From Paraglomus occultum (lineage: Eukaryota > Glomeromycota > Glomeromycetes > Paraglomerales > Paraglomeraceae), in assembly GCA_910592205.1 (NCBI GenBank), contig CAJVPJ010000582.1, positions 1 through 21,533 on the forward strand: a stretch of 21,533 nt of DNA, in the 5' to 3' direction. Shown here one piece after another: positions 3,665 to 20,032 of the stretch (positions are counted from its first letter, which is position 1; each line of letters opens with the position of its first letter). The notes below the pieces were generated by a model that worked only from the letters and a program-made list of their open reading frames with translations, did no database searches and was not told where the DNA came from. The translations under genes were made by a program, and so were the position numbers.

Positions 3665-5040
3665 TTAAAAATCTTTCGTTCTCACGATCAATATTATGAT
3701 TGGGTTGCAGAAAACGTTCCATGCCCAAACATTGGAAAACTATGCAAATTTTTACCAGAGGATAAAATTATATCTATATGTGCGTACCACGCATCTAAAA
3801 CTTGATCTGGTCATAGTTATATTAAAATGTAGTGACAGCAAACGTAAACGATAGCAAACAATGATAATTATTTTCAGTATAAATCTGTAGAGTTACATAA
3901 TTTGATCATCGAGTAATGTCAGAGACCCTCTAAACAATAAATCCGTAGTGCCAACGCAACGTATTGTTTTTGTAGATAGTATACGTGTACAGTACTAACA
4001 CGGCAATAAGTAAATACATCAGTCTTATAGAAAAAGTAATTACTAAGAATATGAAATTCTGAAATTTTTTTTGTTTGATTAATTCAGTTTATTATTATAA
4101 ATGCTTTACTACAACATTCGTCCATAACATTTCAAATTTTTAACAAAGAAAAATTCGACATGAATGTGGCATATTAAACGACACATACTTTTTATTCACA
4201 GCTCTCGAACCTCCCGTGCAATAAAGTAATCGAACTGATTTGCTCTTAGTCTATGCACTTTCTTTTTGAGCAGCATAATTTACCCGTACTTTTAAATCCA
4301 TATAATTTAACATGCATCGATAAACTTGACTATATTTTCTTAATCCACTTTTATTTTATGTGCAGTTTCCCTTTATTGGTCGAAACAATAAAGAATATGT
4401 GAACTATCACATTTCATTGGACAACAATCGTCTATTTCGAATTAAATGATCTGCAAGGACGAAGCACAGCGATTGTTTGTTATATTACAGTATTACATTA
4501 CATAACACGTGTAACAACCATGCAATGCGATAATAAAGAACGAACGCTCATTCTGACCATTCTTCTTACTGATAGGTAAATATTATTACCCAAGAAAAAC
4601 TGCACTCATGCGATCGAAAGAATAATTACACATTCGAACATGATTGTAAGTTAAAAGTTTTACGGCAATTTTTTTTAAAACGTCTTCAACTTTATCAATT
4701 GAGTATTGGTTTAAAATTACGTAGTGCTCGAACATTACGACGCAGGTGTGCACAGCTTTTGGTGTATACTAACTTGTGTTATTTGAGAAACTTATTACAG
4801 CTAGAAATCTACTATATCGACGTTAGTAAATATAGGCAAAATATCTGCTTTCCGACTGTCCATAATTGCAAGAAATAAAACAGTAATGTTACAATAGTTT
4901 GAATAAAGTAATAAACACCACGAAACAATTGTAATTATTTATTATATTATAATCTTGCAGTGTTTTCGTTAACACTAATAGGAAAATGATTACAGGAAAA
5001 AGACTCAATTATTGCCGCATCGCTCATGTTTTTTGGTACG

Positions 5041-5371
5041 TCAATTAAGTGGAGGGTCTGGTTGTGGATTAAACCTTTTTACTCGTTCATGTGGAGGATC
5101 TGGTTGTGGATTAAACCTTTTTACTCGTTCATGTGGAGGATCTGGTTGTGGATTAAACCTTTCAACGTTTCTTGCTTTGACTACAAAATACACGAACAAA
5201 AAGAGTTTTTGAGTCAAGTGGCATTCTTACAAGTATACCTGAGAATCAATTCTCTTGTCTCTTCTAATACTTACCGGCAAAAGACTTGAGTTCTCCCGCT
5301 GGCACTGCGCCGACGTAGCATAACAAGTAAATCAAAGCGCAAATAAAGAGGATTGTTGATTTGGAGGCCAT
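5041..5371 (-). CDS. Secreted KEX2-processed repeat peptide precursor (78 aa)
   Basis: Small secreted precursor predicted to be cut into short peptides in the late secretory pathway. Exon 1 runs 5371-5275 and exon 2 runs 5180-5041, joined over a 94-nt intron (donor GTAAGT, acceptor TTTTGTAG) in matching phase 1. Exon 1 encodes a signal peptide: MASKS, a hydrophobic core TILFICALIYLLCYVG, then a small-residue cleavage region around AVPA. Exon 2 encodes three tandem copies of FNPQPDPP: two full 14-residue units, FNPQPDPPHERVKR, and a final FNPQPDPPLN before the stop. KR precedes the second and third copies in an RVKR context that suits Kex2/furin-type proteases; ER precedes the first. This is the layout of fungal KEX2-processed repeat proteins and alpha-type pheromone precursors; the receptor and role are unknown. 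A TATA-like box lies about 100 nt upstream. The plus strand is also open across the repeats but has no signal peptide or splice structure. Confidence 0.85.
5051..5162. repeat. 42-bp tandem repeat, about 2.7 copies, inside the repeat-peptide gene
   Basis: Units at 5051-5092 and 5093-5134 are full length; the third, from 5135, is cut off after about 28 bases. The two full units differ by one base (GGAGGG versus GGAGGA), a synonymous GAC/GAT change in the aspartate codon on the minus strand. A unit of 42 bp is exactly 14 codons, so copies can be gained or lost without changing the frame. Confidence 0.95.
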
Positions 5372-5468: not shown

Positions 5469-5479
5469 TTTATATAAAT
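5469..5479 (-). promoter_or_regulatory. TATA-like box of the repeat-peptide gene
   Basis: The minus strand reads ATTTATATAAATG here, about 100 nt upstream of the ATG at 5371. It is the clearest TATA-like element near that start and supports transcription of the minus strand. Confidence 0.5.
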
Positions 5480-11010: not shown

Positions 11011-14000
11011 TCAAACGTCCGCGTTATTTCTTATACCACATTTGAGCATCTTGTAAAACTGACTTATTCGTAACGTAGGCGCATTACTTTGTTCACTCTC
11101 TAATGAATTATTGAGATCGGTCAATGCGTTACGGTATTCTTCGAGATCGAAACAGAATTTTTCCTGTATTTGTAATGTACGCGCCGCATCTATCGATAGC
11201 GCCTTATTGAAATCATTTAATGAACTGCCATATTCTTCTAAATCGAGATGCACGTTTCCCCGTATAGCCGATGTGCCGACTCGGTTGTGATAAGTCTCCA
11301 GTGATTTATTCAGATCCATTAACGCGCGGTCATACTGTTTCAACATGTAATACGTCTCGCCTCTGAACAATAACGTCCACTCATTGCTCGGATCGATCTC
11401 CAATGATTTGTCCAGATCGCTCAAGGCGTTTTCGTATTGCTCAAGTTTACAATAAACATGTCCCCGCACGCTCAAAGCGTATTCATCATTCGGCTCAATT
11501 TCTATTGCTTTGCTGGCATCGCTTAATGCACGCTCATACAGTTGGAGTTCACTATAAAGATAGCCTCTTACGGACAACGCAACCACATAATCTTTTTCGA
11601 CTTCCAATGCTTTGTCAACATCGTTCAGCGCATCGTCATACTGTTCAAGTATCGTATAAACGTTAGCCCTTAAACTCAACGCCGACACATCGTCTGGTTC
11701 AACCTCTAACGATTTATTGAGATCCATTAGTGCTTTACCGTACTGTCTTAGATGTAGATAGAAACATCCTCTTCGACTCAACGTCGACGCATCATTTGGT
11801 TCAATCTCTAACGATTTGTTGAGATCAATTAGCGACTTGTCGTATTGCCTTAGCTTTAGGTAGACAACTCCCCTTATTTTCAACGCCCACGCATCATTTG
11901 GTTCAACCTCTAACGATTTGTTGAGATCAATTATTGAAGTGTCATACTGCTTTAAATCTAAATAAACGCCTCCTCTCGCACCAGATGCCCATGCGTCGTG
12001 TGGGTCAATCTCTAACGACTTGTTGAGATCATTAAGTGACTTGTCGTATTGTTTTAAATTTCGATAGACATCTCCTCTTCGACTCAATGCCCACGCATCG
12101 TTTGGTTCAATCTCTAATGATCTGTTGAGATCAATTAGCGCATTATCGTACTGTTTTAGATTTAGATAGACACGTCCTCTTTGACGTAATGCTGATGCAT
12201 CGTTTGGTTCAATCGCCAACGCTCTGTTGAGATCAATGAGTGAATCGTCATATTGTTTTAGTTCCAGATAGACACCTCCCCTTCGACTCAATGCCCACGC
12301 ATTGTTTGGTTCAATCACTAATGATTTGTTGAAATCATTCAGCGAATATTCGTATTGGTTTAGTTCTAGATGGACACACCCTCTTTCTCTCAATGCCCAC
12401 GCATCGTCTGGTTCAATCTCTAATGATTCGTTAAGATCAATGAGTGAATTGTCATACTGTTTTAGATTTCGATATACACTTCCTCTTAGACGCAACACCC
12501 ACGCGTCGTCTGGTTCAATCTCTAATGATTTGTTAAGATCAATTAGTGAATTGTCGTCTTGTTTTAGATTGAAATAGGCACATCCGCTTAAACTCAATGC
12601 CGACGCATCATTTGGTTGAATCTCTAGCGATTTATTGAAATCAATTAGTGCATCGTTGTATTGCTTGAGCTCTAGATAGACAACTCCCCTTTCTCTCAAA
12701 ACCCACGCATTGTTTGGTTCAATCTCTAACGATTTGTTGAAATCATTCAGCGCATTGTCGTATTGCTTTAGATTTCGATAGACATCTCCTCTTCGACTCA
12801 ATGCCGTCGCATTGTTTGGTTCAATCCTTAACGATTTGTTAAAATCTTTTAGTGAATTGACGTATTGTTTTAAATTTCGATAGAGACCTCCCCTTCGGCG
12901 CAATGCCGACGCATTGTTCGGTTCAAGTTTTAACGAATTGTCGAGATCAATTAATGCATTGCTGTATTGTTTTAGGCTTAGATAGACACTTCCTCTTCGA
13001 CGCAATGCCGTCGCATTATTTGGTTCAAACTCTAACGACTTGTTGAGATCAATTAGTGACTTGTCCCATTGCCTTAGATTTAGATAGACACCTCCTCTAT
13101 GCCTCAATGTCCACGCATTATTTGGCTCAATCTCTAACGATTTGTCGAAATCGTTGAGTGCGTTGTCGTATTTTTTTAGATCTAGATAGACGCCTCCCCT
13201 ATGTCTCAATGCCCACGCATTGTTTGGCTCAATCTCTAATGATTTGTTGAGATCGTTTAGTGCGTTGTCGTATTTTTTTTGATCTAGATAGACGCCTCCC
13301 CTATGTCTCAATGCCCACGCATTGTTTGGTTCAATCTCTAACGATTTGTTGAGATCGTTTAGTGCACTGTCATATTTTTTTAGATCTAAATAAACACCTC
13401 CCCTTTCTCTCAGTGCCCACGCATCGTTTGATTTAATCTCTAACGATTTGTTGAGATCAATTAGTGATATATCGTATTGCTTTAGATTTCGATAGACACT
13501 TCCTCTTTGATTCAATGCCCACGCATTGTTAGGTTCGATCTCTAGCGATTTGTTGAAATCATCCAGTGATTTACCGCGTTGTTCTAGCTCTAGATAGACA
13601 CCTCCCCTTTCTCTCAATGCCCACGCATCGTTTGGTTCAATCTCTAACGACTTGTTGAGATCAATTAGTGATTTGTCGTATTGCTTTAGATTTCGATAGA
13701 CACTTCCTCTTTGATTCAATGCCCACGCATTGTTCGGCTCAGCCTCCAATGACTTATTAAGATCGTCTATTTGAGAACAATTCTCCAATCTCGTATAAAT
13801 GTTAGCACACAATGGTCGCTTACTAGGATCTTCATCCCAACAATCTGAATACAAGCTAATATATTCTTCAAGTGTTCCAGGAAATGGAGAATCACGGGAG
13901 CCGTCAAGCCTATACATAATAATTTTAACAGCTTCGGTAAGTCCTCCGCATGGGTCTTTGCCACTGGATATTTCCCATAGTATCACACCAAGACTAAATA

Positions 14001-14913
14001 CGTCAGATCTTTTTCCACGTTGATATGAATTGCCTTTCAAAGACAGCGGATCTTTGTATGCTGGAGCGCCGTCTCCATGTGATTTGGACATCGCTTGTTT
14101 CAACACACTCGATAACCCGAAATCAGTTATCTTTGCAACGTTTGATTTGATAAGGATATTACTTGATGACTGGAAAACAAACGCATACATCAGCTTAACG
14201 TAGATACGAGTCAAAAAATAAATCAGAATGTGGGCTGTGTGATAAATACCAAATCCTTATGAATAATATCAAGATCATGTAAATGTTTTAGCCCATTGGT
14301 GACTTCCAAGCCCAGCTTGTATTTGTCTTTCCAAGTCAAAGTTTTAAAGTGTGTCCTTAAGTACTCACGCAAATTCCCTCCGTCAGCGAGTTCAAACATC
14401 ATATTATAATTCTCATTTCTGTCTGTATATGTCGCGTTGAAAATACGATAGCGTTAAGAAGCAATTCGCAAGTAACAAGTAAATAGATTGTACATTGTCA
14501 ACATACCTTTGTATAGACCCAGAAAACGGACAATGTTAGGATGATTGTTCGCTTTGTTATGACATTTTAACTAGCGTATAGTATTCATTCAAGAATTAGT
14601 CTCTGCACAAATAGATGTGAAAGCATAATGAGAATGGGATAATAATAGACAACCTCTTTAACAAATTGTTGATGTAAATCTTCTTCACAATCACCATGCC
14701 TGTCGAGACGTAAAATCTTCACTGCAACAGTATTATCGGAGAAAATGTTGCCGGCGATGCCAGTTTCCTGCTTACCGTTGCCTTGCATACCACTCCAAAT
14801 GCTCCATGGCCAATATATAAAGGGTCCAGTTCTAAGTCATTCTCTGAGCAGCAATAAATCAAACCTTCACGAATGGTCGCTTCAAGCCACTCCTTATAAG
14901 ATGTTTGAGACAT
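11011..14913 (-). CDS. Kinase-TPR fusion protein with about 27 TPR units; frameshift in the kinase N-lobe
   Basis: Predicted signalling protein: an N-terminal protein kinase followed by a long TPR superhelix for protein binding. Exons: 14913-14654, 14570-14507, 14422-14250, 14169-11011, matching the paralog at 17357-20032. Kinase motifs: glycine loop GHGAFGVV, lysine strand VAVKI, HPNIVRFLGLY, HKDLSSSN catalytic loop (HKD for HRD), TDFGLSSV, and YKDP where most kinases have APE. Exon 1 lacks one base near 14772-14774 relative to the paralog (GCAACGGTAAGC versus GCAACGATAAAGC). The frame therefore shifts between GVVCKAT and KQETGIAG, and translation from the ATG stops before the catalytic lysine. 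With that base present the protein would be about 1218 aa. The remaining 1052 codons of exon 4 are intact, so this is a recent mutation, an assembly error, or a gene read by some unusual means. The intron after exon 1 has a weak GTTGTC donor, as in the paralog. Confidence 0.85.
11014..13761 (-). repeat. TPR-coding tandem array, about 27 units of 34 codons
   Basis: Units of 102 bp with the pattern LNKSLEIEPNDAWALRERGG-Y--LKQYD-ALID. TPR signature residues (W/A, L, R/G, Y, A/S, D) are kept. Units 1-19 are very alike at both DNA and protein level; units 20-27 are more divergent and match, one to one, the last eight units of the paralog. The pattern EPNNAWALRHRGGVYLD recurs in units 5 and 6, pointing to very recent unit duplication around 13130-13400. 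Confidence 0.93.
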
Positions 14914-17356: not shown

Positions 17357-20032
17357 TCAACTATCTGCGTTTTTTCTTATACCACATTTGAGCATCTTGT
17401 AAAATTGGCTTACTCTTAATGCCTGCGCGTTATTTTGTAATGAATTGTTGAGATCAGTTAATGCATTACGGTATTCTTCGAGATTGAAACAGAATTTTCC
17501 CTGTATTTGCAATGTACGCGCATCTATCTCTAGCGTCTTATTTAATAGACTGCCATACTTTTCTAAATCAAGATGCACGCTTCCTCGTATAGTCGATGCG
17601 CTGACCTTATTGTGATAAATTTCCAATGATTTATTTAAATCTATGAATGCACGGTCATATTGTTTCAACATGTAATATGTCTCGCCTCTGAACAATAATT
17701 TCCATTCATCACTCGGATCGATCTCCAATGACTTGTTGAGATCACTTAAGGCATTTTCGTATTGCTCAAGTTTACAATAAATATGTCCCCGCACACTCAA
17801 TGCAGATTCACCGTTCGGCTCAATTCCTATTGCTTTGTTGGCATCGCTTAATGCACGCTCATACAGTTTGAGTTCACTATAAAGATAGCCTCTTACGGAC
17901 AGTGCAATTACATCATCTCTTTTGACAGCCAATGCATTGTTAACATCATTCAATGCATTGTCATACTGTTCAAGCATTGTATAAGCATAAGCCCTCATAC
18001 TTAACGTCAACGCATCGTTTGGTTTAACCTCTAACGATTTATCGAGATCCATTAGTGCTTTGCCGTACTGTCTTAGATCTAGATAAAAACATCCCCTACA
18101 ACCCAATGACCACGCATTGTCTGGTTCAATCTCTAACGATTTGTCGAGATCATTTAATGCATTGTCATATTTTTTTAGACGGAAATAGACGTTACCCCTT
18201 CCTCTCAATGCTAGCGCATCATTTGGTTTAACCTTTAACGATTGGTTGAAATCGTTTAGCGCATTGTCATATTTTTCTAGATTGAAATAAACATCTCCTC
18301 TTTCTTTCAATGCCCACGCATCGTCTGGTTCAAACTCTAACGATTTGTTGAAATCATTTAGTGCATTGTCATATTTTTTTAAACGGAAATAGGCGCCTCC
18401 TCTTCGACTCAATGCCCACGCATCATTTGGTTTAACCTTTAACGATTGGTTGAAATCGTTTAGTGCATCGTCATATTTTTCTAGACTGAAATAGACGCCT
18501 CCCCTTTCTTTCAATGCCCACGTATTGTCTGGTTCAAACTCCAACGATTTGTTGAGATCGTTTAGTGCATTGTCATATTTTTTTAGACGGAAATAGGTGC
18601 CTCCTCTTCGACTCAAAGCCCACGCATCATTTGGTTTAACCTTTAACAATTGGTTGAAATCGTTTAGTGCATCGTCATATTTTTTTAGATCGAAATAGAC
18701 ACTTCCTCTTTCTTTCAATGCCCACGTATTGTCTGGTTCAAACTCCAACGATTTGCTGAGATCGTTTAGTGCATTGTCATATTTTTTTAGATTTCGATAG
18801 GCGCCTCCTCTTCGACTCAATGCCCACGCATCGTCTGGTTCAATCTCCAATGAGTTGTTAAGATTGTCTATTTGAGAACAATCCTGTAATCTCATATAAA
18901 CGTTAGCACACTGTGGTCGCTTATTGGGATCTTCATCCCAACAATCGGAGTATAGGGTAAGATATTCTTCAGGGGTTCCAGGAAATGGGGAATCACGGGA
19001 GCCCTCAAGCCTGTACATAATAATATCGACAGCGTCAGTAAGTTCTCCGCATGGGTCTTTGCCGCTGGATATTTCCCATAATATTACACCAAGGCTAAAT
19101 ATATCCGATCTTTTTCCACGTTGATATAATTTGTCCTTCAAAGATACCGGATCCTTGTATGCTGGAGCGCCGTTTCCATGTGATTTGGACATTGCTTGTT
19201 TCAACACGCTCGATAACCCGAAATCAGTTATCTTTGCAACGCCTGATTTAATAAGGATGTTACTTGATGACTAGAAAACAAAGGTATGCATCAGCTTAAG
19301 ATAACATCAGTAAAAAGATACAATCGAAAGGTGTATTGCGATGATAAATACCAAATCTTTGTGAATAATATTAAGACCATGTAAATGCTTTAGCCCATTG
19401 GTAACTTCTAAACCCAATTTGTATTTGTCTTTCCAAGTCAAGCTTTTGAAATACTTCCTTAGGTGCTCACGTAAACTTCCGCCATCAGCGAGCTCAAACA
19501 TCATATGATAATTCTCATGTTTGTCTGTATACGTTGAAAATACGGTAAGAAGCTATTCCTTGTAGTAATAAGCCCTTTGTGAACATACCTTTGTATAGAC
19601 CCAAAAACTGGACAATATTAGGGTGGTTATTTGCTTGGTTGTGGTGTTTTAGCTAACGTATAAGCATGTTGTAGTTGTTCGAAAAGTTAGTCAATATATA
19701 CAAAACAATGCTGCGAGTATAAACTAATGATAATAAACAACCTCTTTAACAAATTGTTGATGTAAGTCTTCTTCCTTATCTCCATGTTTGTCTGGAAACA
19801 AAATCTTCACAGCGACAGTAGTGTCAGAAAAATTGCTAGATTTCTTGCCCAAGATGGTCTTGGCAATGTTTCCAATGCCGGTCTTCTGCTTTATCGTTGC
19901 TTTGTACACTACTCCGAATGCTCCACGACCAATATGTAGAGGGTCTAGTTTTATGCTATTCTCTGGACAGCAATAGATGGAACCTTCATGAATGCTTGCC
20001 TTTAGCCATTCTTTATAAGATGCTTGAGACAT
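17357..20032 (-). CDS. Kinase-TPR fusion protein, 813 aa, intact paralog
   Basis: Protein kinase domain (about residues 25-300) followed by about 15 TPR units (from about residue 313). Exons: 20032-19742, 19652-19589, 19524-19352, 19270-17357, all in phase. Motifs: start MSQASYKEWLKASI, glycine loop GRGAFGVVYKA, VAVKI lysine, FVKE helix-C glutamate, HPNIVQFLGLYK, hinge MMFELADGGSL, HKDLSSSNILI catalytic loop, TDFGLSSV, a YKDP motif in place of APE, DIFSLGVILWEI, and WDEDPNKRP. The motifs fit an active TKL/RIPK-like serine/threonine kinase. The intron after exon 1 uses a weak GTTGTT donor; reading through it would end the protein at VVYYH. The TPR part probably binds a partner and brings it to the kinase; partner unknown. 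It is the intact sister of the gene at 11011-14913, same strand and exon layout, so the two arose by tandem duplication. Confidence 0.93.
17360..18862 (-). repeat. TPR-coding array, about 15 units, with a 204-bp two-unit repeat
   Basis: Units alternate between two types: SLEFEPD-(T/A)WALKERG and SLKVKPNDAWALSRRG. Pairs of units (68 codons, 204 bp) are repeated about three times between roughly 18150 and 18860, so expansion took place in two-unit steps. The last eight units (from about 18147 down) match units 20-27 of the neighbouring paralog. Confidence 0.92.

Follow-up and report, generated by a model that had tools for sequence, protein, structure and literature searches.

Kex2-processed repeat proteins (KEPs) of fungi carry a signal peptide followed by near-identical peptide units that are separated by KR sites and cut by kexin, as described in parts of Le Marquer 2019 (PMC6339444) and Umemura 2020 (PMC7329392). 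The strict KEP test set out in one section of the former paper asks for a signal peptide, at least four fragments after cuts at KR or RR, at least three of them alike, and repeats that make up at least 15% of the protein (PMC6339444). SP7-like proteins of Rhizophagus, also an arbuscular mycorrhizal (AM) fungus, are likewise secreted and contain repeats from [KR]R, according to the relevant part of PMC5293756. In this study, a small gene of Paraglomus occultum was compared with these systems. Its precursor shares the signal peptide, the near-identical units and the KR sites of KEPs, and a kexin is encoded in the same genome; it differs from them in having two KR sites, three fragments and single-copy relatives. 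The likeness to SP7-like proteins is one of description; no Rhizophagus name occurs among the matches listed, most of which are nameless.

The gene lies on the minus strand (5371-5041) of the window, the whole stretch of 21,533 nucleotides that was analysed. Exon 1 (5275..5371, 97 nt) holds the start codon (5371-5369), the signal peptide and the start of the pro-region; it is followed by a phase 1 GT-AG intron of 94 nt (5181..5274, GTAAGT...TTTTGTAG). Exon 2 (5041..5180, 140 nt) encodes the remaining pro-region and three copies of the core FNPQPDPP, and ends with the stop codon TGA (5043-5041). Joined in phase, the two exons translate into a precursor of 78 aa, MASKSTILFICALIYLLCYVGAVPAGELKSFAVKARNVERFNPQPDPPHERVKRFNPQPDPPHERVKRFNPQPDPPLN-stop; read without splicing, the frame of exon 1 is closed by a stop that comes after SFAGKY, just beyond the donor. 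By inspection, the signal peptide covers approximately residues 1-25 (5371-5297), with a charged start, the hydrophobic stretch ILFICALIYLLCYVGAV and small residues ahead of GE, and the precursor has no further membrane helix. The product is very likely secreted. Core copy 1 (5134..5157) is preceded by NVER, which is not dibasic; copies 2 (5092..5115) and 3 (5050..5073) are both preceded by RVKR, with the KR codons at 5121-5116 and 5079-5074. The residues that follow the three cores are H, H and L, copy 3 being closed by LN-stop. All three cores are held in a 42-bp tandem repeat (5049..5162, 2.7 copies, 98% matches), in which copies 1 and 2 are identical across 42 nt and copy 3 shows a single synonymous change within the core, GAT to GAC. 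A possible TATA box (TATATAA, 5470..5476) and a possible poly(A) signal (AATAAA, 4938..4943) on the same strand are consensus matches only. The splice join, the three cores with RVKR before the second and third, and an open plus-strand frame opposite the gene (87 aa, 5026..5289, the reverse complement of the repeat) had all been described in the earlier note on this DNA, and each was found again here.

Among the neighbouring ORFs in the window are protein kinases, of which two also have TPR repeats. At 11011-14190 and 17357-19192 of the minus strand, protein-kinase ends are fused to long TPR arrays with DNA repeats of 102 bp. Bacterial contamination was ruled out by the GT-AG intron and these protein-kinase/TPR neighbours; window and gene are fungal. 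RNA structure at the locus was unremarkable (z 0.29), and a PADLOC search for defence systems matched 0 of 7 proteins. A DNA pattern for [FL][ND]PQPxPP found these three copies alone in the 32.3-Mb assembly, with 0 matches for the reversed control, and no second locus for the gene was found in its own genome with either precursor as query.

Three protein searches, from which the best 120 each of 250, 340 and 262 matches at E 10 or better were taken, gave 212 different proteins among the matches listed. One of them (P0001) is an identical 78-aa protein already deposited for P. occultum, which equals the splice product predicted from exons 1 and 2; the expectation that automatic annotation would miss the gene was therefore mistaken. 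PRJEB45340 was annotated with GeneMark-ES, as stated in part of PMC10512289, and the deposited models probably come from that ab initio prediction, the link to PRJEB45340 being our own; the deposit is thus no independent proof of expression. Two proteins of P. brasilianum also share the leader encoded by exon 1. P0002 (55 aa, 78% identity with P0001 as aligned) ends in HVRR-FNPQPDPPRDPQLAG, with a single FNPQPDPP behind RR and then R; at the place of this RR, copy 1 of P. occultum is preceded by ER. P0121 (54 aa) ends in HVQK-LNPQPEPPGFINEK, with a single LNPQPEPPG behind QK. Among the matches listed, leader and pro-region match Paraglomus alone. The identical deposited protein and the two P. 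brasilianum proteins sharing leader and core indicate that the gene is not a chance frame, and the gene and its anatomy are almost certainly real. A meaningless minisatellite was also ruled out, since the core is retained in single-copy relatives. The search of relatives for a signal peptide with repeated FNPQPDPP-KR, which the earlier note had proposed, thus recovered the leader and the core in P. brasilianum, but neither the repeats nor KR. As P0002 and P0121 are single-copy, with the core behind RR and QK, it is the core and leader, rather than the repetition and the KR sites, that are shared with P. brasilianum. A further match, the 99-aa metagenome protein P0003, has three cores, each with KR directly in front; two of these cores run on into KERV or KEGV, which resemble the HERV of P. 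occultum. P0003 may come from another eukaryote.

A single P_proprotein domain match was found in the genome (C166:15313-15486). It lies in an ORF that resembles yeast kexin 1ot5, with a match at 1.4e-52. This kexin gene makes Kex2 cutting after KR plausible, and the precursor is probably cut in this way. In the predicted course of maturation, the signal peptide would be removed, kexin would cleave after both KR sites, and a Kex1-like enzyme would trim the basic ends. Copy 2 would then be released as FNPQPDPPHERV and copy 3 as FNPQPDPPLN, and copy 1 would be released in a longer form with the pro-region still attached. The KEX2-processed repeat layout assigned to the gene earlier is borne out by the tandem cores, KR and kexin, but weakened by the relatives, which are single-copy with RR or QK, and by the strict KEP test: by inspection the signal peptide is present without another membrane helix, and the cores alone account for 24 of 78 residues, but two KR sites yield three fragments. 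Of the 212 proteins among the matches listed, 3 carry a dibasic pair immediately in front of the core; P0121 and copy 1 lack such a pair, and release by Kex2 may therefore not be the rule. The precursor could alternatively stay uncut, as a small secreted protein whose proline-rich tail is disordered and in which the core serves as an exposed linker or tag. The single-copy P. brasilianum forms, one of them without a Kex2 site, speak for this; against it are the kexin in the genome and the placement of KR exactly between the P. occultum copies and before each of the three in P0003. An uncut tail is, on the whole, unlikely.

The layout of signal peptide, tandem short peptides and KR separators is also that of an alpha-type mating pheromone precursor, and the gene had been called pheromone-like for this reason. 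STE13-like signatures have moreover been described on R. irregularis KEPs in part of PMC6339444. In P. occultum, however, FN follows both KR sites, and not the X-A or X-P dipeptide of the STE13 signature of Ascomycota alpha pheromones. No pheromone family appeared among the Pfam matches; an MF_alpha-type match was not found in the precursor searches, whose HMMER filters let few very weak matches through. Mating peptides usually differ from species to species, whereas the core is identical in one P. brasilianum relative and shared with bacteria. A search for the STE2 receptor matched 0 of 1 genome, yet 0 of 14 control genomes matched either. A mating pheromone is highly improbable, and the pheromone-like label is unsupported.

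Apidaecin precursors (PF00807) have proline-rich units in common with the P. occultum precursor and are likewise built of tandem units with dibasic separators; a proline-rich antibacterial peptide aimed at soil bacteria was therefore considered. The 38-aa mature region touches the C-terminal end of the Pfam Apidaecin profile in two stretches (best at residues 3-11; E 0.58), but its score of 10.8 bits is far below the cut-off of 23.1 bits, and the full precursors gave no Apidaecin match. Proline-rich antibacterial peptides are cationic, whereas the four Paraglomus peptides are acidic, with a net charge between -1.15 and -1.24 at pH 7, and the P0003 unit has -0.24. The core is also carried by bacteria themselves. 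Although a table in PMC7329392 pairs Apidaecin with one KEP type, from Rhizophagus, Diversispora and Trichomonascus, such an antibacterial function seems quite improbable for the Paraglomus precursor.

The core proved to be widespread in bacteria. The 212 listed proteins other than P0001, P0002, P0003 and P0121 look bacterial in our judgement; organism names, given for few of them, are bacterial and include Mycobacterium, Devosia and Candidatus Angelobacter. A working definition of a bacterial NPQP module, [FL][ND]PQP[DEL]PP, was adopted, which the cores of P0001, P0002, P0003 and P0121 all fit. Two to five copies of the loose core occur in 205 of the 212 proteins among the matches listed. In 585 xxPxPxPP stretches of the listed proteins other than the four above, the free places are nearly fixed as F/L, N/D, Q and D/E/L; this set was gathered by motif similarity and so describes the module without testing it. 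A DNA-pattern scan for FNPQPDPP in 84,980 prokaryote genomes found at least 134 places in at least 118 loci. By eye, the record titles of these loci fall into at least 14 phyla, including Acidobacteriota, Actinomycetota, Pseudomonadota, Myxococcota, Planctomycetota, Verrucomicrobiota, Bacteroidota, Chloroflexota, Bacillota and Cyanobacteriota. Conservation extends outside the searched letters: G directly follows the core in 86 of 133 listed places, and the residue before it is G in 68 and A in 39 of 134 (G or A, 107/134). The 134 listed places use 99 DNA spellings, and this free codon choice points to selection on the protein or peptide. With the motif masked, the 121 listed ORFs fall into 55 groups, with sizes of 29, 17, 9, 4, 3 and 3, seven of two, and 42 singletons. 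No Pfam or NCBIfam model above cut-off covers the module in the proteins tested, and no name or description of it was found in the open-licence PMC literature, in which the string 'fnpqp' matched cattle-genome text.

Reversed patterns gave matches in 0 of 12, 0 of 148 and 0 of 60 genomes, the 12 having been chosen as motif holders. A chance pattern was ruled out by these controls together with the flank conservation and the codon freedom; single bacterial matches may still be due to chance, and three poor-looking loci (L011, L032, L053) were kept in the counts. The module is rare and patchy: F[ND]PQP[DE]PP occurs in 2 of 148 genomes of one class, the centre included and the other match being FDPQPDPP, and FNPQP[DE]PP in 2 of 60 genomes of one phylum, again with the centre included. 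A mobile or phage element was rejected, as the viral_contigs set gave 0 matches for the pattern (1 for the reversed pattern) and one weak plasmid match was seen (P0004, E 1, 45%).

In the bacterial ORFs, the core often stands behind an export-type leader or close to the protein end. It directly follows an AxA signal-peptide end in 21 of the 121 listed ORFs, a GG/AG leader in 11 and a lipobox cysteine in 6; in another 25, it is no more than 15 residues away from the C-terminus. Such export-type or terminal placement totals 63/121, with the core elsewhere in 58, and these classes rest on start codons picked by hand, with a bias to signal-like starts. Secretion-like ORFs number 76 of 121 with the motif against 180 of 641 in the background, a comparison biased by setting the best-scoring start against the first ATG, and on which no conclusion is based here. 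In myxobacteria and acidobacteria, the module forms much of ORFs of 18-23 aa with an MKxxTxxKAG-like leader, which argues against its being the linker of an uncut tail. At an acidobacterial locus (L100:6175-6563), three tandem module sites fall in a stretch of less than 400 bases; the outer two are part of mini-ORFs, MKVQTxVKAGFNPQPDPPG, and the middle site is FNPQPEPP. In Thiodictyon, a C39-peptidase ABC exporter and an HlyD protein are encoded upstream of a 35-aa peptide ORF, which starts approximately 260 nt further on.

In 3 of 3 Paenibacillus loci, the gene for a 52-aa protein with a signal peptide and two cores adjoins that of a response regulator; the regulator has a LuxR-type DNA-binding match, above cut-off in 1 of 2 tested. 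In both loci whose sequence extends far enough, a second small gene, secreted by its looks, is followed by one for a histidine kinase; the kinase has a possible 7TM sensor, the match being below cut-off. Among the three Paenibacillus genes, the 18 core codons show 1-3 synonymous and 0 amino-acid changes per pair, and the other 34 codons 3-4 amino-acid changes. Related genes with 56-61% identity, presumably globin-like, lie near module peptides in Cellvibrio (L049:1770-2258) and in a Burkholderiales MAG (L034:4965-5393); globin as a general module partner was ruled out, with 2 of 118 listed loci found by tblastn.

Family B, a set of secreted domains and the commonest bacterial carrier (29 ORFs), has the module right after the signal peptide in 11 and at the very end in 11 of the 22 aligned members, the other 7 being two-domain, short, open-ended or near-duplicate. 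The module in this family thus behaves as a detachable piece. In the structural model of one C-terminal form, the motif tail is predicted to be poorly ordered (block 181-190, pLDDT 60; residues 179-182 below 50), which would suit an uncut, exposed tail in the fungal protein as well. Foldseek with this model gave no match at E 0.001 or better, with TM-scores of 0.35 or less in the 50 matches listed. Docking of the motif in family B was rejected on the poorly ordered modelled tail and the Foldseek result. Further carriers are ATP synthase alpha of Acidobacteria, with the module close to the C-terminus (L046 and L112, the latter assigned by sequence likeness to the former), and 2-oxoacid dehydrogenase E2 of alphaproteobacteria, with the module ahead of the E3-binding domain (L067, L111). 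These carriers argue against a ligand role in every case; together with the 58/121 placement, they fit an exposed linker as well as a ligand.

Two further features of the carriers were observed. A family of 17 motif ORFs (L013, L024, L036, L050, L093, L113 and 11 others), many of approximately 650-800 aa, occurs in Sphingomonas, Chloroflexota, Bacteroidota and other hosts, and several members also carry LNPQPLPP; no Pfam match was found in the 3 members tested and no NCBIfam match in the 1 tested. The words LPAVQ and DGSV occur in 13 and 18 of the 121 listed motif ORFs (L003-L120); both are absent from the 597 motif-free ORFs of 200 aa or more in the same loci. We take both to be typical of planctomycete DUF1559 prepilin-like proteins.

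The bacterial NPQP peptides and the Paraglomus precursor thus have in common the 8-residue core, with its F/L and D/E variation, in small export-signal precursors, often in 2-5 copies. They differ in that the bacterial core usually has G after it and stands behind other leaders, and in that the 209 other listed proteins, P0121 among them, have no dibasic pair directly before the core. Among the Paraglomus proteins, the G is present in P0121 and replaced by H, H and L in P. occultum and by R in P0002. The KEP descriptions in the parts of PMC6339444 and PMC7329392 considered here report no bacterial sharing of a core, unlike the case of Paraglomus. The core may have merely converged on the bacterial letters in a Kex2-processed effector or hormone directed at the plant or at the fungus itself. 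Such an origin would agree with the leader and pro-region, confined to Paraglomus among the matches listed, and with the repeat-containing secreted proteins with Kex2 sites of AM fungi, some of them expressed in planta, that are described in parts of PMC5293756 and PMC6339444. However, a rough composition model predicts that approximately 1 in 9,000 random xxPxPxPP peptides would carry, at all four remaining places, the letters that are common in bacteria, and both P. brasilianum cores, LNPQPEPPG included, use letters common in bacteria (F/L, D/E). A converged effector or hormone is therefore doubtful. The fungal core is, with good confidence, the same module as in bacteria and no coincidence, although it is too short for alignment to show common descent.

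The sharing of the core with bacteria changes the likely role of the peptide from that proposed in the earlier note: it may be a shared or borrowed extracellular signal rather than a private fungal pheromone. Our preferred reading, to which we give a probability of roughly 0.4, is that the Kex2-matured fungal peptide acts on whatever the bacterial module acts on. The peptide would owe its effect to its core, the NPQP module, which bacteria of many phyla set on peptides and protein ends, and the fungus would show or release the same ligand outside the cell. An exposed proline-rich ligand, which bacteria would display or release and Paraglomus would release through Kex2, is the simplest way to cover both sides. 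It would hit the same target as the bacterial module, be it nearby bacteria or a receptor recognising the module; in the rhizosphere, the Paraglomus core could mimic or compete with bacterial signals. The common target, or mimicry, is itself a tentative step. It is more speculative still to regard FNPQPDPP as a cross-domain extracellular word, exported as a ligand along several routes by bacteria of many phyla, with which the Kex2-matured version of an AM fungus talks to, or jams, listeners in the root zone.

In sum, the fungal gene by itself is one more small secreted precursor. Its core links it to a module that recurs in otherwise unrelated bacterial proteins, many of them with export signals. 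This link opens a concrete and cheap test of inter-kingdom peptide signalling near roots, and the module is a lead for the annotation of small bacterial peptides.
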